A stretch of DNA of 64,000 nt from Akkermansia muciniphila (GTDB taxonomy: Bacteria > Verrucomicrobiota > Verrucomicrobiia > Verrucomicrobiales > Akkermansiaceae), in NCBI GenBank assembly GCA_945890645.1, contig CAMDCV010000022.1, positions 1 to 64,000 of the forward strand, read 5' to 3'. The notes under the pieces were generated by a model that did not search any database, was not told the DNA's origin, and worked only from the letters and a program-made list of their open reading frames with translations. Positions 10,780-53,498 of this stretch are shown piece by piece. How positions within the stretch are numbered: the first letter of the stretch is position 1; every line of letters starts with the position of its first letter. The translations under genes were made by a program, and so were the position numbers.

Positions 10780-10885
10780 AATAACCGCATATATCGTGAA
10801 CGTGCTCCATAAATTCTGCGCTCCATCGTAAATATTTTTGAGAACGTGAAAGATTGTCATGCGCTAGAGTGTTTGCATCACTGGG

Positions 10886-13800
10886 ATGAATACCATCCCG
10901 ACTATGAAAACAAACATTGCCTCTTGGGCTAAAGGACTGATTCGCGTAGCGAAATCAATTATCCGTATCTTCGCGCTTATTCTTAGCGCTTTGATCGGAA
11001 CATGGCAGCCGCCGACATGGATGTGCTGGATCACTGGGAAAACCACCGCCATTTTGGCGAAACGACCGAAAACTTGGGCGGGCCTCGCGGTTGCCGCGCT
11101 GGCAATTGGCATCGGCGTGCAGCAATGGCAGCGCTGGTGGGAAATGCATCGACCGCAAGAGCGGCAACTTGTCGTCAAACGGGAACTTACCTGGACGATT
11201 CAAGCGCCTGCAATCACAAGCTGGAGCAATGGGGCTCCTACCTATGGTTCTGTGGTCGTATCATTTAATGATGCCGCGGCACCTTTAGAAATGATCAAAA
11301 AAGTCGCCACCAATACGGTCGTGATGAAACCTTCCGTACCCGGCGAGTGGAAATGGACGAATGACCGTAGCTTGTTATTTATGCCGCAACAGGATTGGCC
11401 GGCCGGTCAGGAGTATTCTCTGGCTCTGCAAAAATCCGCGTTCCCTGAGGAAGTGGAATTTTCCTCGCCCGAATCAACTTTCCGCACGGTGCCACTCGAT
11501 GTAAGAGTGGAGGAATACAAATTCTACACTCAGCCCGATCAACCGGAAGTGCATCAGTTAACCGCTACTTTGTATGCAAACTATGCGCTGACCCAAGATG
11601 CCTTGCAGGCTCAGCTCAGCTTGCTACCGTTTGCGGAAAAGCCTGAGTCTTTTGGCGGAGCAACGCCCACTTTCACGCTGACCGCGAGTTCTGCGCCTAA
11701 CAAATGGTATTTCCGCAGCGCTCGCGTGCAGGTGCCTAGCAAGTCAGAGGAGGTGAAATTAACCGTTGCCAAGTCATTGCGCGCGCTTAGCGGTGGAACC
11801 GCCATGGCCGCCGATGTGGTAGCCAAGGCCATGGTGCCAGATAAATATTCGGCCATGAAGATCGCCAACGCCGATCTGAGAATCATCAAAAATGAGCAGG
11901 GCGAGCCGAAGCAGTTTTTGTTACTCAGCACCAGTCTCGGTGTGACGCCTGTCGAGATGAATCAGCGTGTGCGACTTTATCGACTCACTGATGATGACGA
12001 TGAATCCCTGCGCAACGCGCGAAAATCCGTGAACGACGTGACCCCTGAAATGGTGTCGCGTGCGATGCAGATTCCGATCGAAAGAGTCATCCAGGATGAA
12101 GAACCGCCGCATCCAGTGGCACATGCCTATCAGTTTTTCTCGCCGAAACCGGGTCGTTTGTTGTTGCTAATTGATTCGGGAATGCAGGCACTAGGTGGCT
12201 TTGCTCTGGCCGACGAATACCGTAATTTCTTGTCACTGCCTTCGTATCCGGTCGAACTCGAATGGACTGGCAAGGGTAATGTTCTCGCACTGAATGGCGA
12301 GAAAACGATCCAATTCAAGTCGCGTGGTGTGGATTACATTCAAATCACCTGTGGACGCGTGCGTTCGGGAGAGGTCAATCACATGGTCACTCAGAATGAC
12401 TACGGTGATTTTTCCGATCCTTCGTTAGAGGGCGATTTCAGTAAAGACAGCCTAGTGCGCAGTCAGACCTTTATTGTTCGGGTGGATAAAAAGAATGACT
12501 GGGAAGCTTTTTATACGCCCTTCGATCTCAGCAAAGCCATTGCCCACGCGGATCCCAGCGATCCCGATCCATCGCGCGGATTGTTTTTCGTTCAGGCAGA
12601 TGCTGTGAAGGCAACGCTCCCGGGGGAAATGGATACTTCGGTCCACTCACGTGTGACTGAGCCAGAGGACTACAGCGGCTATGAGGACGGCGATGACGGC
12701 TATCACGATATCGATGAAGATGCCGGCGAAAAGATTTGCCTCAATTCTGATGGCACCGTTGCGAAGCCGAGTGATTGGTTTTCCGATGTCAAACCCGGTG
12801 GCTCCGTGATTTGGAGCGGACGTGGTTTAGACGCGGATCGCTTTGTGATGTTGACGGACTTGGGCCTGCTTGTGAAAACCAATGCAGATCTGAGCCGCGA
12901 TGTATTTGTAATGTCGCTGAGCTCGCAAGGACCGGTAGTTGGAGCCGAAGTGTTGATGATTTCTCGCAACGGCAGCACGCTGGAGCAGAGCATTACTGAT
13001 GCCACGGGTCGCGCGGCACTTTCTAAACCAACGGTGACAGCAAAAGAAAAACAAGCGGTGGCGATCATCGTGCGACGCGGCACTGACCTGTCATTCATTC
13101 CACTGCGCCCCGGGCATTTGCCGGCGATGGATTATTCGCGTTATGATATTGATGGTGTGCTGAGTTCTCGTACGCAGGCTGTTGAGGCGCATCTCTTCAC
13201 CGAGCGCGGTGTGTATCGTCCTGGCGATAAGGTGCATTTTGGTGGCATCGTCAAACGTCGCGATTGGAAAGCCGTAATTGAGGGTTTGCCAGTAAGGGCG
13301 ATTCTCCGCGACAGCGAGGGCAATCAAATCGCCACGAAGGATTTCCAACTGCCAGCCGATGGGTTGATTGAGGGCGATGTGTCAACAGCGGAGACCCATC
13401 CCACGGGCGTTTACGAACTTTCGTTGTGGGTATTAAACCGTGGCGAGAATTCCGTGAAATTTCTGTTAGGCAGAACTCCTTTGCGTGTGGAAGATTTTCG
13501 CCCGGATCGATTGAAGATGAAAGTCGAGATCGAACCAGCGCTGGCGAAAGGCTGGCTCAAGCCCGCCGATCTGAAAGCAAAAATTTCGTTAGAGAATCTT
13601 TATGGTGCTCCTGCGGACAGCCGTCGGGTCACGGGCGATTTAACTCTGAATCCTGCGGACTTCCGTTTCGCGACTTGGTCGGACTATGAATTTTACGATA
13701 AGTCGAGAAACCAATCGAACTCCATCGCGGGTAAGAATATTTCTCTGGGCGAGGTGAAAACGTCACCCCTCGGTCAGGCAGAAATGGCTCTGAATTTATC

Positions 13801-16800
13801 GAATCTGGAAAGAGTCAACATGAGTATCTCCATGCAGTTGGAAGCGTTCGAAAGCGATGGCGGTTTTGGTGTGCGGGATCACCAGAGTTTTCTGGTTTCA
13901 CCGTGGGACTACGTCGCTGGATACGATGCCGATTGTCAGTTGGACTACATGGGGAAAGATACTGTGGGTAAGGTGAAATTCATTGCCGTGGATCAAAACT
14001 TGCAACCGCTGGCGGTCGAGGGTCTACGCTATCGCATCACCGAAAGGAAATACGTTTCCGTGTTGCGCAAACAGGACAATGGCAATCTGAGCTATCAATC
14101 CGAGGCTCGCACCGTATTGGTGCGTGAGGAAAATAGCGTCCGCTGGTCGGCTGGACCCGTGGAAGTGAATTTGGACACTAGCAAGGTCGGAAATTTCACT
14201 TGGCAGGTGCTCAACGACAAAGAAGAAGTGATCTGCGTTTTCACCTATCAAGTCATTGGCAAAGGCGATGAAGATCGCAGCCTCGAGCGCGACGCGGAAC
14301 TCACACTGACAGTAGCGCAACCTAAGGTGCAAGCTGGTGGAGTGGTGGAGGTGTCCATCGTCGCTCCTTATGCCGGTGCGGGTCTCATTACCATCGAACG
14401 CGAAAAAGTTTTGTATTCGCAATGGTTTGTTGCTGATACGACTGCCAGCGTGCAGCGAGTGCGCATCCCAGCAGGACTGGAAGGCACTGTATATTGCAAT
14501 GTTTCATTTGTGCGGTCGCTGGACTCGCCGGATATTTTGATGTCGCCTCTGAGTTATGCCACGCAGCCATTGACCATCGAACCAATCGAGCGGCAACTAC
14601 AAGTGGATTTAACGGCACCGAAACTGGTGAAACCCGGTGAGACGCTCAAGGTGCAATATCGTACGAATCATCCTGCACGTATTGTTGTTTATGCGGTGGA
14701 TGAAGGCATTCACCAAATCACACGCTACAAACGCCCGCAACCGTTAGACTTCTTCTTCCGCAAGCAGGCGCTAGAAGTGCGCACGCAGCAGTGGTTTGAC
14801 TTGTTAATGCCGGAGTATCGTTTCCTCAAACAAAATGCAGCATTCGGTGGCGACGGCGGCGAAGAATTGGAAGCACTGACGCTAACGTTGAATCCGTTCA
14901 AGCGCAAACGCGATGCTCCAGTGGTCTGGTGGTCTGGCATTCAGGTCGCAGGCCCGGAGACCAAGGAGTTAACTTATACGGTGCCTGATTACTTTACGGG
15001 AACTTTGACCTTGATGGCGGTGGCCGTATCGGAAACACGCGCTGGTTCCGCGCAAGCAGCTACCTTGGTGCGCACGCCCTTGGTGCTGACACTGAACTCG
15101 CCCACTACGGTGACTCCTGGTGATGAGTTTGTTGTATCGGTAACTCTGACGAACTTACTGGATAAAGAAGGTCCGTCAGACGTGGCATTGCGCATGGAGC
15201 CATCCTCCCATTTGCAGATGATCGGCGATGCAGGAACTACAATGACAGTGGAGAAATCGCGTGAAGTCACGCAACGTTTCCGCTTCAAAGCACTCGACTC
15301 ACTCGGATCGGCGAGCGTCAAGTGCTATGCCTCATCTGGTTCGGAAGCGTCGACCCGCACAGAAACCATGAGTATCCGTCCGGCTACGCCTTTCCGCACG
15401 CAGGTGCGCAGTGCCTACATTCGTACGAGCAAGCATGAGCAAGAAGTAACGCGGAGTTTGTATGATGCCTATCGCCGTAGCGAGGTCGTGGCATCGCCGT
15501 TGCCGGTGGTGCTAGCGCTCGGCATGCGCGATTACATGAATGCGTATCCCTACGATTGTACCGAGCAATTGACGAGTAAGGGCCTAACATTGCTATCGTA
15601 TCGAGGAATGAAAGCACTGCCGCAGCAAGGTAGTTTGACGACGCAGAGTTTGGCGCAGATCATTTCCGAACTGCAGAGCCGACAAAGCAACAGTGGTGGA
15701 TTTGGTTACTGGCGTGGCAGCACGAGTGAGAGCGATGATTTCCTCAATATCTATGCGGCGCATTTCCTGTTAGAAGCGAAAGAGGAAGGATTCGCGGTGC
15801 CGCATCAAATGATCACCCGGATGAATGCCAAGCTCCATGCGATTTGTCAGTCGGGTGAGGTGTCGAATCTCGCGATGGCTGACCGCAAGGCCTATGCGAT
15901 TTATTTGCTGACGCGTCAGGGACAACGCCCCAATGGACTATTGTCACTGCGCGAAACTCTCGATCGTACCCAGGCCAAGCTGTGGCAGACACGATTGTGC
16001 GGCAGTTTCCTCGCGGCGGCGTATTTGTTGCAGCAAAACAACAAGGAAGCCGAAGCCATCGTGAAAACGTGGAAGCTCGCGAAGGCGGACGAGTATCGCA
16101 ATGGTGAGGACTACTGGTCGCGTGTGGAGGTGGATGCTTTGTTGTCCTTCGCCATCCGTGCCCGGCATTTTCCTGATGCGGTGAAAAACTATGGTTATGC
16201 CGATTGGCAGAAGCTCTATGGGGTGTTGTGGCAAGATCGCTACAACACAGTTACGGCGTCATGTGCGACCTTAGGCATGCGAGAGTTTGCCAAGGTAGTA
16301 GCGGCGAATGCCTTTGAGTTCGAAATCAATGCACTGCCTAGAGATGGTTCGCCTGCAATATCCTTGGTGAAAACGAAGGAGATTTTTGCAACGGCGCCGT
16401 TTGCGGAGCAGATGAAAGCCTTACAATTCCGCCTCGATCAAAAGGACGGAGATCAGGGGCTATTTTATCAGGTGGTGGAAGAGGGCTTTGATCGAAAACT
16501 GCCGACTGAACCACAGAAAGACGGCATTGAAGTGTATCGTGAAATCACTACGATGGAAGGCAAGCCTATCGAATCGTTGACTGTTGGCGACTCTCTGAAA
16601 ATGACATTGCGAGTGCGCAACATTAGCAATATTCCGTTAGGGAATCTGGTGCTCGTTGATTTGCTGCCCGGTGGATTTTCCTTAGAGCCAGGTGGCCTGC
16701 GTCCGGGGATCAATACGGTATCGGGAACCGAGCGCGCTGACTTGCGTGAAGATCGCAATCTATTCTTTTTCTCCCTGCATAAGGCGAAAGATCTGACGAT

Positions 16801-16930
16801 TCATTACGTTTTACGTGCTACTTGTGCTGGAGAATTTCTTGTGCCGCCCTTGTATGCAGAGTCAATGTATGACCGTGGTATCAACGGAGTCGGGCTAGGT
16901 CGTAGTATCAAAGTTCTCACACGCGAGTGA
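10886..16930 (+). CDS. bacterial alpha-2-macroglobulin
   Basis: This 2014-residue protein is a proteinase-trapping macroglobulin of the YfhM type, thought to guard the cell envelope by covalently capturing attacking proteases. Two hydrophobic segments at about 24-40 and 63-80 anchor it. MG-type beta domains fill the middle, including the HLFTERGVYRPGDKVHFGG segment typical of the family. The thioester motif C-T-E-Q is intact at 1558-1561 in PYDCTEQL, and an all-helical domain follows it. It is longer than E. coli YfhM because of an extended N-terminus and an acidic insert near residue 600. No lipobox is visible, unlike many relatives. Its stop overlaps the start of pbpC, the classic pairing. 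Confidence 0.93.
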   Translation: MNTIPTMKTNIASWAKGLIRVAKSIIRIFALILSALIGTWQPPTWMCWITGKTTAILAKRPKTWAGLAVAALAIGIGVQQWQRWWEMHRPQERQLVVKRELTWTIQAPAITSWSNGAPTYGSVVVSFNDAAAPLEMIKKVATNTVVMKPSVPGEWKWTNDRSLLFMPQQDWPAGQEYSLALQKSAFPEEVEFSSPESTFRTVPLDVRVEEYKFYTQPDQPEVHQLTATLYANYALTQDALQAQLSLLPFAEKPESFGGATPTFTLTASSAPNKWYFRSARVQVPSKSEEVKLTVAKSLRALSGGTAMAADVVAKAMVPDKYSAMKIANADLRIIKNEQGEPKQFLLLSTSLGVTPVEMNQRVRLYRLTDDDDESLRNARKSVNDVTPEMVSRAMQIPIERVIQDEEPPHPVAHAYQFFSPKPGRLLLLIDSGMQALGGFALADEYRNFLSLPSYPVELEWTGKGNVLALNGEKTIQFKSRGVDYIQITCGRVRSGEVNHMVTQNDYGDFSDPSLEGDFSKDSLVRSQTFIVRVDKKNDWEAFYTPFDLSKAIAHADPSDPDPSRGLFFVQADAVKATLPGEMDTSVHSRVTEPEDYSGYEDGDDGYHDIDEDAGEKICLNSDGTVAKPSDWFSDVKPGGSVIWSGRGLDADRFVMLTDLGLLVKTNADLSRDVFVMSLSSQGPVVGAEVLMISRNGSTLEQSITDATGRAALSKPTVTAKEKQAVAIIVRRGTDLSFIPLRPGHLPAMDYSRYDIDGVLSSRTQAVEAHLFTERGVYRPGDKVHFGGIVKRRDWKAVIEGLPVRAILRDSEGNQIATKDFQLPADGLIEGDVSTAETHPTGVYELSLWVLNRGENSVKFLLGRTPLRVEDFRPDRLKMKVEIEPALAKGWLKPADLKAKISLENLYGAPADSRRVTGDLTLNPADFRFATWSDYEFYDKSRNQSNSIAGKNISLGEVKTSPLGQAEMALNLSNLERVNMSISMQLEAFESDGGFGVRDHQSFLVSPWDYVAGYDADCQLDYMGKDTVGKVKFIAVDQNLQPLAVEGLRYRITERKYVSVLRKQDNGNLSYQSEARTVLVREENSVRWSAGPVEVNLDTSKVGNFTWQVLNDKEEVICVFTYQVIGKGDEDRSLERDAELTLTVAQPKVQAGGVVEVSIVAPYAGAGLITIEREKVLYSQWFVADTTASVQRVRIPAGLEGTVYCNVSFVRSLDSPDILMSPLSYATQPLTIEPIERQLQVDLTAPKLVKPGETLKVQYRTNHPARIVVYAVDEGIHQITRYKRPQPLDFFFRKQALEVRTQQWFDLLMPEYRFLKQNAAFGGDGGEELEALTLTLNPFKRKRDAPVVWWSGIQVAGPETKELTYTVPDYFTGTLTLMAVAVSETRAGSAQAATLVRTPLVLTLNSPTTVTPGDEFVVSVTLTNLLDKEGPSDVALRMEPSSHLQMIGDAGTTMTVEKSREVTQRFRFKALDSLGSASVKCYASSGSEASTRTETMSIRPATPFRTQVRSAYIRTSKHEQEVTRSLYDAYRRSEVVASPLPVVLALGMRDYMNAYPYDCTEQLTSKGLTLLSYRGMKALPQQGSLTTQSLAQIISELQSRQSNSGGFGYWRGSTSESDDFLNIYAAHFLLEAKEEGFAVPHQMITRMNAKLHAICQSGEVSNLAMADRKAYAIYLLTRQGQRPNGLLSLRETLDRTQAKLWQTRLCGSFLAAAYLLQQNNKEAEAIVKTWKLAKADEYRNGEDYWSRVEVDALLSFAIRARHFPDAVKNYGYADWQKLYGVLWQDRYNTVTASCATLGMREFAKVVAANAFEFEINALPRDGSPAISLVKTKEIFATAPFAEQMKALQFRLDQKDGDQGLFYQVVEEGFDRKLPTEPQKDGIEVYREITTMEGKPIESLTVGDSLKMTLRVRNISNIPLGNLVLVDLLPGGFSLEPGGLRPGINTVSGTERADLREDRNLFFFSLHKAKDLTIHYVLRATCAGEFLVPPLYAESMYDRGINGVGLGRSIKVLTRE

Positions 16931-37866: not shown

Positions 37867-38721
37867 ATGAAAGCCTCATACTTCCTCCTGCTTTTCCTAG
37901 TCACAACACTAACCGCCCAAGAGGTTGCCACCCGCGCCACCCTGCTCGCTCCCATCATCCGCGAGCCAGTTGTTCAGCCTCCCCCAAAACCCGTCCTGCG
38001 CATCGAAGTCCCCGCAGACAGCATCATCGAATCCCAGGACAGCATCATCGACGGCCAAAAAATCACCATCCAAGAAATCGAGCCCATCGCCCTGCCGCCG
38101 ATTCCACCACCGCCAGTGCCCCGCCCCCTCACCGCCGAGCAAATCGCCGCCCGTGAGGCCCTGATTGCACGCGCTCCGAAACACCGCAGCCTCATGCTCT
38201 CCTGCACCGTTTACGATGGCAAACACACCCTCATACGCGGCATCACCCGCACCGAAAACACCGCTCACCACTGGGAAGCATGGAGCAACATCAACTTCCG
38301 CCACTTCAACACCCTCCAACGCTTCCAAAAAAACGACATCGTCTTTTCCCTTCTCTTCGGTATCGGCGATGAAGACACCGCCAGAAACGCCGCCCGTCAT
38401 GCTCGCTTTGGCAAAGCCTACACACCACCCGCCATCCCCGAGCTACCTGCCGACTCCACTACCGAACCACGCTTCATCGTTACCAAAGGCACACCCACCG
38501 CCGAAGACCTAGCCCCCATCATCGGCCTTCACGAAATTTATCATGACCACCATATCGATCTCATCAGCGAATACCACCGCATTAAAACACTGCGCGAACA
38601 AGAAGCCGCCGAACGATTAGCCAATCCCCCCGATCCCAAACCCGACATCATCATCCAGCACTGTACCGTTAGCCCCGACGCCCAAACCCCAACCGCAAAT
38701 GAGGGAGGAGAGAACAAATGA
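37867..38721 (+). CDS. secreted proline-rich protein of unknown function
   Basis: This encodes 284 residues with a signal peptide at 1-18 (ending LTAQ). Residues 30-100 are proline-rich, including a PPIPPPPVPRP run, and may span the periplasm or cell wall. A globular middle part (SLMLSCTVYDGKHTLIRGIT...HHWEAWSNINFRHF) follows, with a HEIYHDHHIDLI stretch near residue 225. No family was recognised. Its stop overlaps the start of the 1529-residue gene (ATGA), so the two are translationally coupled and probably act together. It begins just after the HEARO-like RNA. Confidence 0.75.
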   Translation: MKASYFLLLFLVTTLTAQEVATRATLLAPIIREPVVQPPPKPVLRIEVPADSIIESQDSIIDGQKITIQEIEPIALPPIPPPPVPRPLTAEQIAAREALIARAPKHRSLMLSCTVYDGKHTLIRGITRTENTAHHWEAWSNINFRHFNTLQRFQKNDIVFSLLFGIGDEDTARNAARHARFGKAYTPPAIPELPADSTTEPRFIVTKGTPTAEDLAPIIGLHEIYHDHHIDLISEYHRIKTLREQEAAERLANPPDPKPDIIIQHCTVSPDAQTPTANEGGENK

Positions 38722-41700
38722 AATCCTCCCCACATCTACGCGTTCTCTCCGTCATAGCCGTTCAATTTCTCCTTCTCACTCCAAGCCACGCCATCCTCGA
38801 TACTAACAGCAATGGCCTATCAGATATTTGGGAAAAACAATACAACGAAGGCGCATTACTTCCTAACACCTTCCTCCCCACCGGAGATCAAGACCAAGAC
38901 GGCTGGAACAACATCACAGAATCCATTGCCGGCACCAATCCCTTCGATGCCAACCAACCCGGCGGCATCGTAATACCCCAAATCCAAGCCAGTCCCGCCC
39001 AGGGATTTTTCCACATAGACCACCCCACCATCCTTGGTAAAACCTACCTCCTCCAAGGCTCCGTCGATCTCATCTCTTGGCTCGACATCAACGATACCGT
39101 CCTCGCCCGAGAAGAACAACTTAGCTCCGTCAGCGCCGTATCCACCACCACTGGCGAGCCGCCATCCAAATTCTTCTGGCGCGTTCAAATCGGCGACATC
39201 GATAGCGACACCGACGATCTAACAGATGCCGAAGAAATCATCATCGACACCAATCCCCACCACAACGATACCGATAATGATGGCATCCACGACAAAGCCG
39301 AACTCCTCCGCGCCCTCGATCCCCTCAACCCCGATACCGACGGCGATGGCCTCTACGATGGCTACGAAGACACCATCCTCACCAATCCCCTAAACCCCGA
39401 CACAGACACTGATGGCATTAACGACGGCCAAGAACTCTACGACGGCACCAATCCACTCCTCGCCGATACTGACAGTGATGGCCTTAATGACCTAACAGAA
39501 AAAAACCACGGCACCAATCCATTAGTAGCCGACACTGATGGCGATGGCATCAACGACGGCCAAGAAATCACTAACGGCACTAGTCCCTTCACCAACGACA
39601 CCGACCTCGATGGCATTGCAGACGGGCAAGACACGCTTCCACTGATCAACGGAAACTACGCTAACCCCGATGGCATAGCTCTCTCCCAAGAAATCTTCAT
39701 AGGAATGACCTCGCTTTGGGATTTTGAAGACATTCAGCCCATTGATCACAACAATGTGTCATCTCCCAATTTTGCAAATTTGATTACGGCAACAATGCCT
39801 GCACGAATACACGGGCCTGTTGTCTCTTTAAATGGTATGATTTCCCGCTCAGCTCGTTTTCAAAGTGCCAATCACAGCCTTATAGCCTCCCCACAAGTAT
39901 TGGGAGAATTTATAAACTGGACAGTCTCTTGTTGGTATAAAATGCCCATCGACTCACTTCAAAATAGAGTCAGCACAGCTAGCACCACTTTTTGGGCATA
40001 CAATGACACAAGCGATTTAACTCCTGACATAAGCGTCAAAGCACTCAAAGCAATCGGCGCTTTAGATCATCAAAAAATCATTATTACATTGCGCGAAAAT
40101 GAGGCAGAACCAACAAGTCTTATTGCAGAAATTCCCATCATTGATCCATTGGACAATGATACTTGGCAACACCTCACCGTTGCCAAGCACAACGGCGTAA
40201 TCAAACTCTATCGCAACGGCCTATACTTGGGCCAGATTGCCACCGACGCGTCTTCCTACACCCCAGAGTCCAATGGATATTTTGCCATAGGAAGACTTCA
40301 TCAAACGGCACCTGAAAATTCTTCACTTTATGGAAATATAGATCGATTCATCATTCACAACAGGTCACTGTCAGAAGCTGAAATTGCATCACTTTGCAAT
40401 CTTGATACAGACAAAGATACCGTGCCAGACCGTATTGAAGCAGCCACAGCAGTTTGGCGCGACTTCAATTCCAACGGTTTACGCGAAAGCAACGAAACGA
40501 TGTATTTGCGAAATCCATACGTTTGGGAACCCATTACAAAAGATTCCGACCAGGATGGACTCACCGACGAACTTGAAATAGTACACAACACCCGAATCGC
40601 TAACCCCGATACTGATGGTGACCTCATACCAGACGGCTGGGAAATCCTTCACGGCACAAATCCACTTGACTCGGCAGATGCGTCAAACGATCTCGACAAC
40701 GATGGATTGCCAAATATTTTTGAATACCAATGTAACTCCAATCCAACCGTAGCAGACACAGATAATGACGGCACAGAAGATGGAGCAGAAGCAAATGGGC
40801 CAGATGGCAACATTGCTACGGATGACGGATCATTTCCTAACGACGCCTCCGACCAAGGAACGCGTCCAGCTTCCGAAGAAATGATAACCCTAAAACTCGG
40901 GGTAGGAGATCGTAGCTCCAGTCACAGCGAAAACTACGCGCTGCACGTATATCAAATCCAACAAGATGGAACAGAAAAGCGAATCCACACACTTGAAAGC
41001 GGCGGATACGGATATTACGCCGAAGAAACACGCAGTTTCCTAAAAAAATATTCCTACACATTTCAAATCGATTGGAAAGGCACATCGGTGCCTCCCTCAG
41101 AACCCGCTACTGGTATTGTCCATACATTTTCAGAAGCCAATGACTTCGATTACCACCTCGTCGTAGAACCCCTCAGTGGCAACCAAGGACACGTCTTGAT
41201 CGACTCCTACGATCCCCGCACCAAAACCGCCGATCCCACCACGCCACTACTTGACCCCCAAGACATCAACCCAACCGACGATGACGACGACAACGTAGCA
41301 AGCTTCCTCGAAACCCACGAACCCAAAAGAGTAGTCCTCCTCCGCGCCAGCATCCTAGTAGATGCCAACCGTGACGGCCAATTCAGCAAAGAAGACGATG
41401 GCCAATTTACTGAACAAAACCCCTGGCGAATCTGGATTAACAATGATGATGACTCAGGTGAGACCGGAGGCACTGATGGTCCGAGTGAACACTTCAAAAA
41501 CTACTACACTCATTACGTTGATCAAATGCGCGACTTAATTGATTTTTTCCCTTGTACCTTAAAGTTAAAAGACGCCTTACGCATGTTTCCGACTGCAAAA
41601 AATAAGTACGTTCTAAAAACCACAAATGACACAGCTTACTCTCCAGTAGCGGCTGCTTGGTTACCTTCAATTCCACTGTTAAATAATTACGGCAAATGTA

Positions 41701-43307
41701 ATGCATACCTCGAAGACATTGCAATCGCAAAGGAAGTCGAAAATAAAAAAACTCATCTGATTAATAGTGCTGGTAGAGAACTACCCTCAGAAATGACTGA
41801 CCAGCTTCATAACGGTAGTGGTATGATGTTGATCGAGGGGCGGATACCCCAAGCATGTGAGATCACCCTAGAAATCATTGATAAATCATCAAATGTAATC
41901 GTTGGTTCGATTAATCTTTCCACTTCAATCAGTTCAGTTATGGACATGCTCCGTTACAAATTCGTGATGCCGAATGCTCCCCAAATTACAGAAGGAGATG
42001 TACCCATCTCTCCACCTAATTGGCCTGACACTGAAAGAAATGATAAACATTTTGTATTCGTGCACGGATACAATGTGAATGACCAGCAATCAAAATTCTG
42101 GGCAGCAGAAATATTTAAGAGAATGTACCATGCGGGAAGTGATGCGAAATTTACTGCATTTGCTTGGTATGGATATGACAGTCAAATTACTGCATTAAAG
42201 CTCACGCCGAACTACCAAGTCAATCTCATTCATGCCATAGAAACAGCAAAATCGTTCACAGAATTTCTCAATTTGCTTGAAGGTCAAAAAACCGTGGCAG
42301 CACATAGTATGGGTAATGTTTTAGTTGGAGCTGCCATGACAGATACAGGAAATTGCCAACCAGCGAACTACGTGATGTTAAATTCGGCAGCGGCAAAAGA
42401 ATGCTACGACGAAAATGAGATTTACGACCAAGCACAAGAGACTGTTATGATTCATCCGTGGTGGAAAAATTACATGAAGCAAGTTAGAGCAAGCGAGTGG
42501 CATGACCGAGCTTGGCCTTCAGGGGACGAGAGAAAAAAATTAACGTGGCGTGGTCGATTAAGTGGTGTATTTAACAACGCGCAAACGACTCAAGTTTATA
42601 ATTTTTATTCCAGCGGTGAAGAAGTATTGAATAATCCACAAGAAAACAACCCTGACCTTAGTGCTAATAATCCTTCTGTACGCGGTAAAATGGCGTGGTT
42701 AACTGCAAACAAAACGTGGGCGATGCAAGAGAAGCGCAAAGGCTGGGGGTTGACAGGCGTTGTTCACAGCAGTAACTATGGCGGTTGGTATCCAAATATT
42801 TTTCAATATGATCCAGTATTGCATGTGCTACTAGAATCAAATTCCCCTTGGCGAATGCGCTTACCTTCGGAAATTCCGAATTCACCTCTTGAAAATGGCT
42901 ACGGTCCATTTGTCGCATCACTTATGGAGAAACCATTTTTCGACAGCAGCCAACACGCGCCATTATTTGACTTTGAAAAAGGCGCTAATACTCAAGGTTC
43001 AAACTATGCGAAGCAACACGCCAGCAAATTGATTTCGGAAATGATCCCTTGCACCACCTTGGCTACTGGAAGAAACCCCTTAATCGCATTGGGCGAAGAT
43101 ATCGATCATCCTGTAAATCCAGGAAATAATGTGGATATGCATCGTCTTTTCATGACCGATCCTCAACTTTGGCCTTATAGACCAAAGAACCACGATCCTG
43201 AAGAAGAACTCCCACGCGCGTGGTGTCACAGTGATATACGCGAAATTGCATATACTCATAACTGGAAAGCATTCAAAAAAATTGTTGAAATTGGAAACCT
43301 AAAATAA
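38718..43307 (+). CDS. giant secreted protein: Ca-binding repeats, LamG-like domain and C-terminal alpha/beta hydrolase
   Basis: This encodes 1529 residues. A signal peptide (1-25, ending SHA) is followed by thrombospondin type 3-like repeats at about 160-305 and again at about 562-705, built from DTDGDGxxDG units that bind calcium. A LamG/concanavalin-like domain lies between them (about 330-560, with DTWQHLTVAKHNGVIKLYRN). From about residue 1110 comes a hydrolase fold: FVFVHGYN as the oxyanion turn and nucleophile S1197 in AAHSMGN, a variant of GxSxG. The first third is GC-richer than the last third, so the gene looks mosaic. An esterase or lipase acting on the cell surface or on neighbours is possible; the substrate is unknown. 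Confidence 0.85.
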   Translation: MKSSPHLRVLSVIAVQFLLLTPSHAILDTNSNGLSDIWEKQYNEGALLPNTFLPTGDQDQDGWNNITESIAGTNPFDANQPGGIVIPQIQASPAQGFFHIDHPTILGKTYLLQGSVDLISWLDINDTVLAREEQLSSVSAVSTTTGEPPSKFFWRVQIGDIDSDTDDLTDAEEIIIDTNPHHNDTDNDGIHDKAELLRALDPLNPDTDGDGLYDGYEDTILTNPLNPDTDTDGINDGQELYDGTNPLLADTDSDGLNDLTEKNHGTNPLVADTDGDGINDGQEITNGTSPFTNDTDLDGIADGQDTLPLINGNYANPDGIALSQEIFIGMTSLWDFEDIQPIDHNNVSSPNFANLITATMPARIHGPVVSLNGMISRSARFQSANHSLIASPQVLGEFINWTVSCWYKMPIDSLQNRVSTASTTFWAYNDTSDLTPDISVKALKAIGALDHQKIIITLRENEAEPTSLIAEIPIIDPLDNDTWQHLTVAKHNGVIKLYRNGLYLGQIATDASSYTPESNGYFAIGRLHQTAPENSSLYGNIDRFIIHNRSLSEAEIASLCNLDTDKDTVPDRIEAATAVWRDFNSNGLRESNETMYLRNPYVWEPITKDSDQDGLTDELEIVHNTRIANPDTDGDLIPDGWEILHGTNPLDSADASNDLDNDGLPNIFEYQCNSNPTVADTDNDGTEDGAEANGPDGNIATDDGSFPNDASDQGTRPASEEMITLKLGVGDRSSSHSENYALHVYQIQQDGTEKRIHTLESGGYGYYAEETRSFLKKYSYTFQIDWKGTSVPPSEPATGIVHTFSEANDFDYHLVVEPLSGNQGHVLIDSYDPRTKTADPTTPLLDPQDINPTDDDDDNVASFLETHEPKRVVLLRASILVDANRDGQFSKEDDGQFTEQNPWRIWINNDDDSGETGGTDGPSEHFKNYYTHYVDQMRDLIDFFPCTLKLKDALRMFPTAKNKYVLKTTNDTAYSPVAAAWLPSIPLLNNYGKCNAYLEDIAIAKEVENKKTHLINSAGRELPSEMTDQLHNGSGMMLIEGRIPQACEITLEIIDKSSNVIVGSINLSTSISSVMDMLRYKFVMPNAPQITEGDVPISPPNWPDTERNDKHFVFVHGYNVNDQQSKFWAAEIFKRMYHAGSDAKFTAFAWYGYDSQITALKLTPNYQVNLIHAIETAKSFTEFLNLLEGQKTVAAHSMGNVLVGAAMTDTGNCQPANYVMLNSAAAKECYDENEIYDQAQETVMIHPWWKNYMKQVRASEWHDRAWPSGDERKKLTWRGRLSGVFNNAQTTQVYNFYSSGEEVLNNPQENNPDLSANNPSVRGKMAWLTANKTWAMQEKRKGWGLTGVVHSSNYGGWYPNIFQYDPVLHVLLESNSPWRMRLPSEIPNSPLENGYGPFVASLMEKPFFDSSQHAPLFDFEKGANTQGSNYAKQHASKLISEMIPCTTLATGRNPLIALGEDIDHPVNPGNNVDMHRLFMTDPQLWPYRPKNHDPEEELPRAWCHSDIREIAYTHNWKAFKKIVEIGNLK

Positions 43308-49238: not shown

Positions 49239-52200
49239 ATGGGTTCACTGCATTATTGGGCGTTTCTCTCCTATTCCTCGAAGGATGCGGACTTCGTCAA
49301 AAAGCTGCATGCGAAGTTAGAAACGTACCGCATGCCGCGCGATTTGGTGGGGCGTCCGGGGCTGGATGAGCCGATTCCGAAAAAGTTGTTTCCTGTCTTT
49401 CGTGATCGCGATGAATTGCCGCTCGCTTCTGACCTCGGCTCGACGATCCAAGACGCGCTGAAGGCCTCGCGCTATCTGATCGTAGTCTGTTCGCCGAACT
49501 CTGCTCGCTCGCAGTGGGTGAATGAGGAAATCCGCTATTTCAAATCCATTGGCCGCTCGAACCGAATTCTCGCCTTGATTATAGGAGGAGAACCGCATGC
49601 GAGTCAGGATCCGAATTCATCGCTGGAGGAATGTTTTCCGCAAGCCTTGCGTTTTCATGTCGATGCCGATGGCACAATCACGAATCAACCGACCGAGCCA
49701 ATAGCCGGCGACCTGCGACCAGGCAAGGACGGCTGGGACATGGCATTTCTCAAGTGCATTGCGGGTATCACGGGTTGTGGTCTCAATGCCCTAACAGCTC
49801 GTGAAAAAAAGCGTGCGCGGCGCAGGAAATTACTCATGGCAGCAGCGGGCCTGGTGATGGCAGCGGGGCTCACGGGTTGGTGGGATTACACACGAACGAA
49901 GACGTATTATTATGCCGAAATTGCTGACCGCTTCGGTGTGCCCGAGGGGTATTATGAATTGAGCAGTGACCAGGTGAATCATCGCTCAGTCTCCTACAAA
50001 ATCGAGTCTTCAAGTCGTAAAGTTCGCAGCATCACCAGTGTTCACTCGTCCGATACTCCGGTGGAATCGGGCGATTTTGAATCGGCGATCCAAGAATTGA
50101 AATTTGGAGAAGACGGCAGCCTCCAGGAAATTGTTTACCGTAACCCGTCGCGACGCATCACGGCGCGGAGAATATTTTCTGCTTTGAAAGACAACAGTCG
50201 AATCATTGAGTTCAAGAGCGAGCACGACGATTCCCCAATGGCTCTCTCCGCCAAGGATATTTCGATGTCGTCTGTGGCAGCAACGGCCGCGCGCACCGAG
50301 GTTACAGCACAGCGTGCGAGTTATTTTGACAATGGTGCCCTGAAAGAAATTCGCTTTCTTAGTTCGTGGCGAGAGCCCCGCGCTGACCCTGATGGGGTTT
50401 TTGGCATGCGTTATGAATACGAAGGAAGTTTGCTGCCTGCGAAGATTACCAATCTGGATGTTTCAGGGCAGGCCGTGAAAAACCGTCGAGGCTTTGCCAT
50501 CGCGCGCTTTGGTCGTACGGAGATGGGTGCTCCGCATCAAGTTTCGTTATTTGATGAAATGGAAAAACCGGTGGTTGAGCCTCAGTTGTATCATTGCTTT
50601 CGCTATGAATACGATAGTTATGGAAACCGCATCGCGAAGTACTTTTATGATGATGCGATGCTGCCAACGGAGGCTGAGTTAGGGTTTTACAAAATGGCTC
50701 TCACTCGCACTTCATCCGGCGACATTGTAAAAACGTCCTACTTTGATAAAGCGCTGCAACCAGTAATCAGCTTGGAGGGATATCATGAGGTGGGGGAAAC
50801 ATACGACTCACAGGGTCGCACGATATCCCAACGATTTTACGACTTACAGCAGCAACCGGCGACCGATAAAACGAATGTGCATGAAATTCGTTCTACGTTT
50901 GATTCGCTGGGCAACCTGATCGCACGCAATTATTATGATGGGAAAGGAAACCCCTGTGTCGGTGGTGATTTTCAAGTGCACCGCGAGGCGTTTTCTTGTG
51001 ATGCTAACGGATTGTTGACCCGGTATTCCTATTTTGATGTGAAGCTTGAGCCAATGGTGCCGCCAGGGTATGTCGCACATCGTGTCGAGTTCCAACATGA
51101 CTCGGCAGGACGTGTCAGTTCTTGGATGAATTTCGATGCAAAAGGGCAACCGATTCTCGGCTCGGTCGATGAGTCCGTAGTGCGCGTGCGATACGATCAA
51201 CGCGGCAATATGATCGAATATGCCAATTTCGATGCATCTGGCCAAGCGTACAATGTATCGGGATTTCAAAGAATCACTCATGAATACAATGATCGTGGAC
51301 TGAGAGTCAAAACGTCCCATTGGGATGCTGACGGTAAGGCCGCGAATGGTTTTCAAGGCATCCATCGCACGGAAACGACCTACGACGATCGCGGTCACAA
51401 ATCAGGTGAACGTTATTTTGCCGCTGACGAAAAGCCGACTACCGATGTCATCGGCGTACATCGTTATCTGTATCGAAAAGATGGGCGGGGCAATATACTG
51501 GAAGAGCAATCTTTTGATACAGAAAATCAACCACTGGCTGCGAGCAATGGCGTCTACATACGTCGCTTTGCCTACAACGATGCGGGCAAAGCGACGCGCA
51601 CAGAATATTTTGATCAATCCGGTAAGCCGATGATCTCGCGCGATGGCTTTCAGTTCTTTACTTCCACCTATGACAGTCGAGGAAATCTGTTAGAAATCGC
51701 CTATTTCGGGCTGGACGGGCAGGCCGCGCTGCATAGCAGTGAATTAGCTCATTGCATCGCTTATGCTTATGATTCACGCAATCGCGAAGTGGGTATCTGT
51801 TATCTTGATGACAAACGTCAGCCCATGATCGGACGAGAGGGGTGGTATGAGCGGCGATATGTATTGGATCTGCGCGGTAATATTACGGCCACTCGCTTTT
51901 TTGGAGCGGACAAGAATCCGATGATTAATGATGAAGGCTTGCATTTGCTTCGCGTGCGCTATGATCAAAAGAATCGGGTAATCGAAAAAAGTTGTTTTGG
52001 CGTTGAAGAGGAACCTGTGCTGTGCCGCTCAGGATGGCATCGTTTGTCGACTTTATTCAGAGACGTATCCGACGATAGCGTCCAAAGCTTCTTTGTTGGC
52101 AAAAGCAGTTTTCGGGTAAAGTCTGCCAATGATAAACACATTCAAAAATTGGAGGTGTTAGACCAGGCGAATCTAAGAATCTTGAATTATTTTGGCATTC

Positions 52201-53498
52201 GCAATGAAGCGATTATCGATTCAGAGGGAGTTCATTGTTACGTATATGAGGTATCGAATGGCGATGATGTGGCTTGCTCGTATTTCGACGCGAATGGCAA
52301 TGCGCATTACGTTGGAGAGTTTTGTCGATGGGAAAAAAGTTACACCATCAATCATGAATTAAAAGAGATTCGTTGGTTTGATGAAGATGTTGAACCAGCA
52401 ACGGATATCAATGGTGTCTATCGACGAAGTAAACGAATTCTTGCCAACACGAGCATAACGGAATTCGCCAATTTTGATGGCAAAGGTCAACCGATGAAGG
52501 ACAAAGATGGGATTCATCGTTGGCAACAATCAACGGACGAAAAGGGTCGAATTACGGAGCTCTGGTACTTTGATCCCAATGGAGAGCCTGCAAAAGAAAT
52601 CAATGGTGTTCACCATGTTAAAAACACTTACGACGACCGTGGTAACATCGTGCGAAAAGATTTTTTCCATGCCAGTGGCAAAGCAGCCCTTGTGCCTGCG
52701 GGGCATGCGGGCTTCCTTGCGGAATTTGATGAAAACAATCGTGAGGTTTCTCACACATGGCTGGGCGAAGAGGGGAAACCGATAGCATTGAGCGATGGTG
52801 TGGCTCGTTGGACATCGAGTTATGATAAAAATGGTTATGAAATCGAGCGGCGGTTCTTCGATGCTTCACTACAAGCGACATTAGGTACTGGCGGACATCA
52901 CCTACGACGCTCACAGTTCGATGCTCTGGGAAGCGAGCTGGAACGGAGTTATTTTGGTATAGATGACAAGCCTGCCGCGCTGGCGAACGGTTTGCATCGC
53001 TGGGTAGCTCGCTACAATGAGCGTAAACAGTTACTGGAAAAATCGTTGTTTGGAGTAGATCAAATACCCATCTGTCACCCTGAAGGGCATCACCGATTCG
53101 TGCAAACATACGATGACCGCGGCAATCTCATTTGCGTGGAAAATTTTGGCATCAACGGCGAACCTGTGCTTTGGCAGAAGCAATATCATCGCGTGGAACG
53201 AACCTACGATGAGGATGATAACGAATCTTCAGTGAGCTATTATGGACTCCAGAAGGAACCGATCGAAAATGATGATGGCTACCACATGCTTGAAACGACT
53301 TATGACGACTTAGGTCGTCCAGCTACGATCACTTTTTCGGATCGCGATGGCAAGCAACCGACCAAAATGAAATTTCGCAAGATGAGCTTGAGTTATTATC
53401 TCGCATTGCCGATCGTGGAGAAAAAATCGTATTTTGACAGCAATGACACGCTGCTCTTTGAGCAGAAATTAGACATGCGAGGGAATCCGATTGACTAG
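49239..53498 (+). CDS. membrane-anchored TIR protein with about 28 tandem 32-residue YD-like repeats
   Basis: This encodes 1419 residues. Residues 1-190 are a bacterial TIR domain: WAFLSYSSKDADFVKKLH, FRDRDELPLASDLG, and SARSQWVNEEIRYF with the candidate NADase glutamate at E96 or E97. A basic stretch (KKRARRRK, about 190-197) leads into one membrane helix at about 198-215. By the positive-inside rule the TIR domain is cytosolic and the rest extracytoplasmic. From about residue 440 to the end run tandem repeats of about 32 residues with the pattern YDxxGN.....YFDxxGxPxxxxxGxHR, related to but longer than RHS/YD repeats. Two units near the middle (about 945-1010) are degenerate. The ATG at 49239 is preferred to a TTG at 49233. 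No recognised partner gene is adjacent. Confidence 0.88.
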   Translation: MGSLHYWAFLSYSSKDADFVKKLHAKLETYRMPRDLVGRPGLDEPIPKKLFPVFRDRDELPLASDLGSTIQDALKASRYLIVVCSPNSARSQWVNEEIRYFKSIGRSNRILALIIGGEPHASQDPNSSLEECFPQALRFHVDADGTITNQPTEPIAGDLRPGKDGWDMAFLKCIAGITGCGLNALTAREKKRARRRKLLMAAAGLVMAAGLTGWWDYTRTKTYYYAEIADRFGVPEGYYELSSDQVNHRSVSYKIESSSRKVRSITSVHSSDTPVESGDFESAIQELKFGEDGSLQEIVYRNPSRRITARRIFSALKDNSRIIEFKSEHDDSPMALSAKDISMSSVAATAARTEVTAQRASYFDNGALKEIRFLSSWREPRADPDGVFGMRYEYEGSLLPAKITNLDVSGQAVKNRRGFAIARFGRTEMGAPHQVSLFDEMEKPVVEPQLYHCFRYEYDSYGNRIAKYFYDDAMLPTEAELGFYKMALTRTSSGDIVKTSYFDKALQPVISLEGYHEVGETYDSQGRTISQRFYDLQQQPATDKTNVHEIRSTFDSLGNLIARNYYDGKGNPCVGGDFQVHREAFSCDANGLLTRYSYFDVKLEPMVPPGYVAHRVEFQHDSAGRVSSWMNFDAKGQPILGSVDESVVRVRYDQRGNMIEYANFDASGQAYNVSGFQRITHEYNDRGLRVKTSHWDADGKAANGFQGIHRTETTYDDRGHKSGERYFAADEKPTTDVIGVHRYLYRKDGRGNILEEQSFDTENQPLAASNGVYIRRFAYNDAGKATRTEYFDQSGKPMISRDGFQFFTSTYDSRGNLLEIAYFGLDGQAALHSSELAHCIAYAYDSRNREVGICYLDDKRQPMIGREGWYERRYVLDLRGNITATRFFGADKNPMINDEGLHLLRVRYDQKNRVIEKSCFGVEEEPVLCRSGWHRLSTLFRDVSDDSVQSFFVGKSSFRVKSANDKHIQKLEVLDQANLRILNYFGIRNEAIIDSEGVHCYVYEVSNGDDVACSYFDANGNAHYVGEFCRWEKSYTINHELKEIRWFDEDVEPATDINGVYRRSKRILANTSITEFANFDGKGQPMKDKDGIHRWQQSTDEKGRITELWYFDPNGEPAKEINGVHHVKNTYDDRGNIVRKDFFHASGKAALVPAGHAGFLAEFDENNREVSHTWLGEEGKPIALSDGVARWTSSYDKNGYEIERRFFDASLQATLGTGGHHLRRSQFDALGSELERSYFGIDDKPAALANGLHRWVARYNERKQLLEKSLFGVDQIPICHPEGHHRFVQTYDDRGNLICVENFGINGEPVLWQKQYHRVERTYDEDDNESSVSYYGLQKEPIENDDGYHMLETTYDDLGRPATITFSDRDGKQPTKMKFRKMSLSYYLALPIVEKKSYFDSNDTLLFEQKLDMRGNPID

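Follow-up and report, generated by a model that had tools for sequence, protein, structure and literature searches.

The gene under study lies on the forward strand of the window, that is, the whole 64,000-nucleotide stretch analysed here, and consists of an open reading frame with no internal stop codons, which starts at an ATG (49239) or a TTG (49233), ends at 53498 and encodes 1419 to 1421 amino acids. The ATG is the more likely start, and it is from this codon on that the protein can be aligned with a full-length ortholog found in a Verrucomicrobiae MAG (L005, 67% identity). Its parts follow one another in the order TIR_2 domain, basic cluster KKRARRRK, a single charge-free helix of 18 residues, a juxtamembrane domain of about 230 residues and approximately 30 repeats of 32 residues. 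The first-pass annotation had proposed a TIR domain, one helix and 32-residue repeats, a layout borne out by the domain scan and by the comparison of the sequence with itself. The features are as follows:

49239..53498, + strand: whole gene, stop included, 1419 amino acids counted from the ATG
49263..49592, + strand: TIR domain, residues 11-120 in TTG numbering (TIR_2 2.5e-12, ThsB_TIR 4e-8)
to about 49796, + strand: conserved extension of the TIR domain
49527..49529, + strand: codon of the putative catalytic Glu in WVNEE, E97 from the ATG, based on conservation in homologues and on alignment with plant TIRs
49806..49829, + strand: basic cluster KKRARRRK, residues 192-199, on the predicted cytosolic side
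49830..49883, + strand: single predicted transmembrane helix LLMAAAGLVMAAGLTGWW, charge-free, with a net charge of +7 before and -1 after
49884..50582, + strand: conserved juxtamembrane ectodomain of about 230 amino acids (A3 profile), common to kinase, nSTAND1 and TM-only versions
50589..53354, + strand: YD-like repeats, about 29 in number and 32 residues long, each with two beta strands; degenerate copies at about 52038-52502
51261..52031, + strand: segment of eight repeats with its own AlphaFold2 model (mean pLDDT 95.1)
53355..53495, + strand: C-terminal tail with one partial repeat, in which neither an Rhs core nor a toxin domain was recognised

In a full-length scan of the protein, Pfam gave no match outside the TIR domain at E <= 1. 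A PDB sequence search with the whole protein returned no significant match, the TIR part yielding weak ones.

When the protein was compared with itself after residue 225, only the lags of 32, 64 and 96 residues stood out. A repeat HMM recovered 28 to 31 copies, of which about 23 score strongly (E < 1e-3) and follow one another every 32 residues from residue 453 to residue 1374, while more degenerate copies occur before residue 450, within 936-1090 and at the C-terminal end. The about 28 repeats counted in the first-pass annotation thus stand, but not their start directly after the helix, since the family domain of about 230 residues lies between; the A3 profile of this domain reaches an E-value of 1.4e-82 in the same genome and has matches in other families too. 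The unit is indeed longer than a standard YD repeat, as had been noted, and is nevertheless of the Rhs/YD type according to the modelled fold. The TIGR01643 YD repeat profile matches the protein with 25.8 bits (cut-off 15.8). A model of eight repeats, built from a small alignment of segments of the window protein and its ortholog, has a mean pLDDT of 95 and displays two strands per unit, in agreement with the beta structure that had been expected of the repeats. Its best matches are the YD-shell structures of Rhs, Tc and teneurin proteins (Foldseek E 3.4e-10 to RhsA; VIA Z 9.7 for Tse5, with teneurins and Tc proteins at 8-9). In a longer, mostly low-confidence model, the repeats align with an Rhs core with a Z of 13.3; the 846-residue model has a mean pLDDT of 55.9 and is of low confidence outside the repeats. 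As modelled, the repeats have the YD-type fold of Rhs, Tc and teneurin proteins, and they belong to the YD/Rhs repeat proteins in the broad sense of a YD profile combined with a beta-shell fold.

At the other end of the protein, residues 11-120 (TTG numbering) score 47.8 bits with TIR_2 (cut-off 28) and 34 bits with ThsB_TIR (cut-off 21.2). The TIR part of the model, which is of low confidence because only two sequences were usable, aligns with AbTir over 92 residues (Z 6.4, 2.9 A) and also with SPARTA TIRs, so that both the family profile (TIR_2 score) and the fold (model alignment) of bacterial TIR NADases are recovered. In every TIR-repeat homologue checked, a Glu lies four residues after the Trp of WVNEE, at the catalytic WxxxE position, and the residue preceding it is variable. 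This Glu, E97 in the window protein, aligns with that of the plant WCLDE motif. The first-pass annotation had pointed to it as the NADase glutamate, and its loss was looked for in the family and not found. These features suggest that the window TIR is likely an NAD+-consuming enzyme. Counted against this reading, and against a receptor, TLR2, a TIR protein lacking NADase activity, carries the same Glu in that alignment. Across TIRs, the frequency of this Glu does not follow the reported activity, and TIRs without NADase activity also carry it (PMC7075850), so the activity of the window TIR stays a prediction.

The order TIR, helix, repeats, to which the first-pass annotation had drawn attention, is conserved across Verrucomicrobiae. 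Besides the ortholog, we identified at least 16 more proteins of this class with a TIR domain, a helix, the juxtamembrane domain and repeats, some of them in tandem: a genome of the same family (G462) has tandem pairs with differing repeat numbers (L084, 4742-12710; L085, 3707-11445), four proteins come from other families (L145, L146, L147 and L150), and several other genomes have single genes. Such proteins are rare, any match to the ectodomain profile being found in 24 of the 384 sampled genomes of the class. No relative was found in the phage and viral collections searched, and the plasmid search gave one weak match (22.8% identity), to a giant LysM protein of Undibacterium; this weakly repeat-like protein is encoded on a plasmid by a 24.7-kb gene (L165, NZ_AP018440.1, 58823-83488). 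Two small contigs of the same genome as the window (L080, 547-3849; L081, 4431-5111) carry a near-identical TIR gene (branch lengths 0 and 0.025), which may reflect a duplication in the assembly.

The same ectodomain is also found behind other outputs. One genus (g252) has proteins in which a protein kinase (PF00069, 7e-54) or an nSTAND1 NTPase (PF20703, 2e-30) is followed by a single helix and then by the repeats, and in two further proteins (L148, L149) the ectodomain and helix occur alone, without a cytosolic domain. With a profile built on the first ~65 juxtamembrane residues, this motif was located directly after the helix in the TIR, kinase, nSTAND1 and TM-only versions but not in shuffled sequences; for the kinase and nSTAND1 versions the match is weak (E 1e-6 to 7e-4, in a small set). 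The TIR-repeat proteins fall into at least two clades of the TIR tree, a distribution that counts for the receptor, and one of these clades is nested in a TIR radiation in which most of the other members sampled have WD40 domains; a single origin is weakly rejected (AU p = 0.039) in a tree that has long branches. The junction of the same ectodomain with a Hanks-type kinase or an nSTAND1 NTPase suggests a generic sensor module, and a receptor with exchangeable output would be the simplest reading of this module swap. We lean, with little more than even confidence, towards a single-pass inner-membrane receptor with a cytosolic TIR output and a repeat ectodomain outside.

Among the alternatives, we considered a structural or adhesive envelope protein, whose repeats would act as scaffold or adhesin and whose TIR would be non-catalytic, doing no more than self-associate so that the protein is clustered or anchored. 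The loose relation between the Glu and reported TIR activity, and the two proteins that keep ectodomain and helix without any cytosolic domain, are in keeping with it. The pair of orthologs has a dN of 0.065 for the TIR domain and 0.17 for the juxtamembrane domain, rising to 0.24-0.33 for the repeats and 0.52 for an irregular stretch; this gradient from TIR to repeats counts for the receptor. We quote dN alone, and claim no positive selection, because over most of the ectodomain dS is either saturated or cannot be defined. Where the ratio could be estimated for this pair, there was no sign of dN/dS above 1, which also speaks for such a protein. It is set against this explanation that the Glu is kept in all TIR-repeat homologues while its neighbour varies, and that the other outputs joined to the ectodomain are signalling enzymes; we regard it as unlikely.

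The topology itself can be questioned, for the protein could be cytosolic, its hydrophobic stretch being non-membrane or inserted in the reverse orientation and its repeats serving as a scaffold inside the cell, comparable to the WD40 repeats found in paralogous TIR proteins. The helix reaches only a moderate hydrophobicity (KD mean no higher than 1.34 over 19 residues), which counts against a receptor, and in the paralogues an equivalent hydrophobic stretch precedes WD40 repeats, often cytosolic elsewhere. Two proteins are exceptions that also count against it: L157, with repeats on the predicted cytosolic side, and L151, a kinase homologue ending in TPR and CHAT on the predicted outside. L151 (5118-11603) is a kinase-helix-repeat protein whose repeats are followed by TPR repeats and a CHAT domain; TPR and CHAT domains are usually cytosolic. 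Against a cytosolic protein, a charge-free segment with net positive charge upstream is present in 27 of 27 proteins compared, which have a TIR, a kinase, an nSTAND1 or a TM-only architecture, so that the basic stop and single helix of the first-pass annotation amount to a strong positive-inside signal, and the arrangement is the same in the kinase and nSTAND1 versions. Moreover, a signal peptide or anchor was recognised by eye at the N-terminus of 15 of the 16 repeat-only relatives, in line with the earlier suggestion that the repeats are extracytoplasmic, and some relatives have PDZ domains C-terminal of the repeats, which counts for the receptor. We thus consider a cytosolic protein improbable; the sequence pattern argues for an N-terminus inside and repeats outside. 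A third proposal, an Rhs-type contact effector with the YD shell as delivery device and the TIR as delivered toxin, would explain the repeat fold, which is that of Rhs and Tc shells, but is very improbable, as the TIR is N-terminal with a helix in between, full Pfam and NCBIfam scans revealed neither an Rhs core nor a PAAR or C-terminal toxin domain, and no adjoining immunity or secretion gene was recognised. The identification as an Rhs polymorphic toxin was likewise rejected, the full-length protein having no core and no toxin domain in these scans and ending in repeats.

The genes around the locus were also inspected. Neighbours are not shared among distinct loci, except for the close pair L148/L149 and the weak pair L088/L092, and those identified are housekeeping genes (dnaE, gyrA, pilT, hemB, opp, lpxA). 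We rejected an operon or partner-gene reading on this ground, the Opp genes upstream being ordinary. Among the neighbours identified there is no defence island, and the idea that the protein detects phage is thus left without specific support; that no partner gene is conserved and no defence setting was seen among these neighbours counts against the receptor. Elsewhere in the window, positions 38718-43301 encode a protein of 1528 residues that combines TSP3 repeats with a laminin-G-like and a DUF900 hydrolase domain, the composition of the DNA there being unusual (GC skew -0.33 at 38-40 kb, GC 0.40-0.46 at 40-44 kb), and positions 10868-16924 encode a bacterial alpha-2-macroglobulin of 2019 residues. 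Remnants of the gene are present in two genomes of the same genus (L077, 8224-9286; L078, 7632-8318), which indicates that it is lost or decays: in the G007 remnant, the first part of the TIR abuts the last repeats and the reading frame is broken and contains a stop, and in the G003 remnant a C-terminal fragment alone is left.

In the receptor that we favour, the juxtamembrane domain and the approximately 30 Rhs/teneurin-type repeats would together build up a large ectodomain, located in the periplasm or the envelope, and one helix would span the membrane with the N-terminus inside. Binding of a ligand or partner by the ectodomain would cluster or reorient the receptors so that their TIR domains assemble; the TIR, a cytosolic output that is probably NAD+-consuming, would fire when brought together with others, and the outcome for the cell might be growth arrest, death or a signal. 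More tentatively, we propose as a possibility that Verrucomicrobiae have a family of immune-like receptors in which one Rhs/teneurin-type ectodomain perceives an envelope signal (another cell, a phage, a predator or damage to the own wall) and is wired to an exchangeable output, either a TIR NADase, a Ser/Thr kinase or a STAND NTPase. If this holds true, the TIR version would be a bacterial counterpart, in layout, of Toll receptors, acting by depletion of NAD+. The best-known bacterial TIR proteins sense in the cytosol. A TIR wired through the membrane to a teneurin-like ectodomain would show the layout of animal TIR receptors in bacteria, and Rhs-type repeats would gain a role in sensing instead of toxin packaging. 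In the full texts searched, which included few subscription journals, we found no paper joining TIR with YD or Rhs repeats and no transmembrane bacterial TIR receptor. A prior description of this exact architecture, which the first-pass annotation had named as something that would refute it, was not found there either. The protein has a real, conserved receptor-like architecture that is apparently undescribed in the literature searched.

With bacterial TIR NADases such as AbTir and the SPARTA TIR-APAZ proteins, the window protein shares TIR_2 and ThsB_TIR scores above cut-off, the Glu at the NADase position and a partial alignment of a low-confidence model, whereas its TIR is joined to a membrane helix and a predicted extracytoplasmic repeat domain of about 1200 residues, and no ThsA, Ago or SAVED partner was seen adjoining the gene. 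As regards Thoeris, no neighbouring ThsA effector was recognised at the locus, and a genome-wide STALD search gave no match, control genomes being equally silent. The TIR-TM-WD40 proteins of the same TIR clade, exemplified by L079 from the same genome, have a TIR 51% identical to that of the window protein and a similar basic cluster and hydrophobic stretch, with WD40 beta-propellers in place of the juxtamembrane domain and YD repeats. The Rhs and Tc YD-shell proteins share the repeat fold (Z 9.7-13.3) and the TIGR01643 match; the window protein differs by its membrane-anchored signalling domain, found instead of an Rhs core or C-terminal toxin. Teneurins are type II receptors of animals that cross the membrane once and have a YD shell; they resemble it in the N-in single-pass layout that is predicted for it and in the Rhs/YD-type repeat fold (VIA Z 8-10). 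The window protein has instead a cytosolic TIR and 32-residue repeats, and the EGF, NHL/beta-propeller and C-terminal Tox-GHH parts of teneurins were not found in it with Pfam. Finally, like Toll-like receptors, it would be a single-pass protein with the TIR predicted inside and a long repeat ectodomain outside, but its TIR is N-terminal, giving the opposite orientation, it has no LRRs and the ectodomains are unrelated: the resemblance is one of convergent layout.
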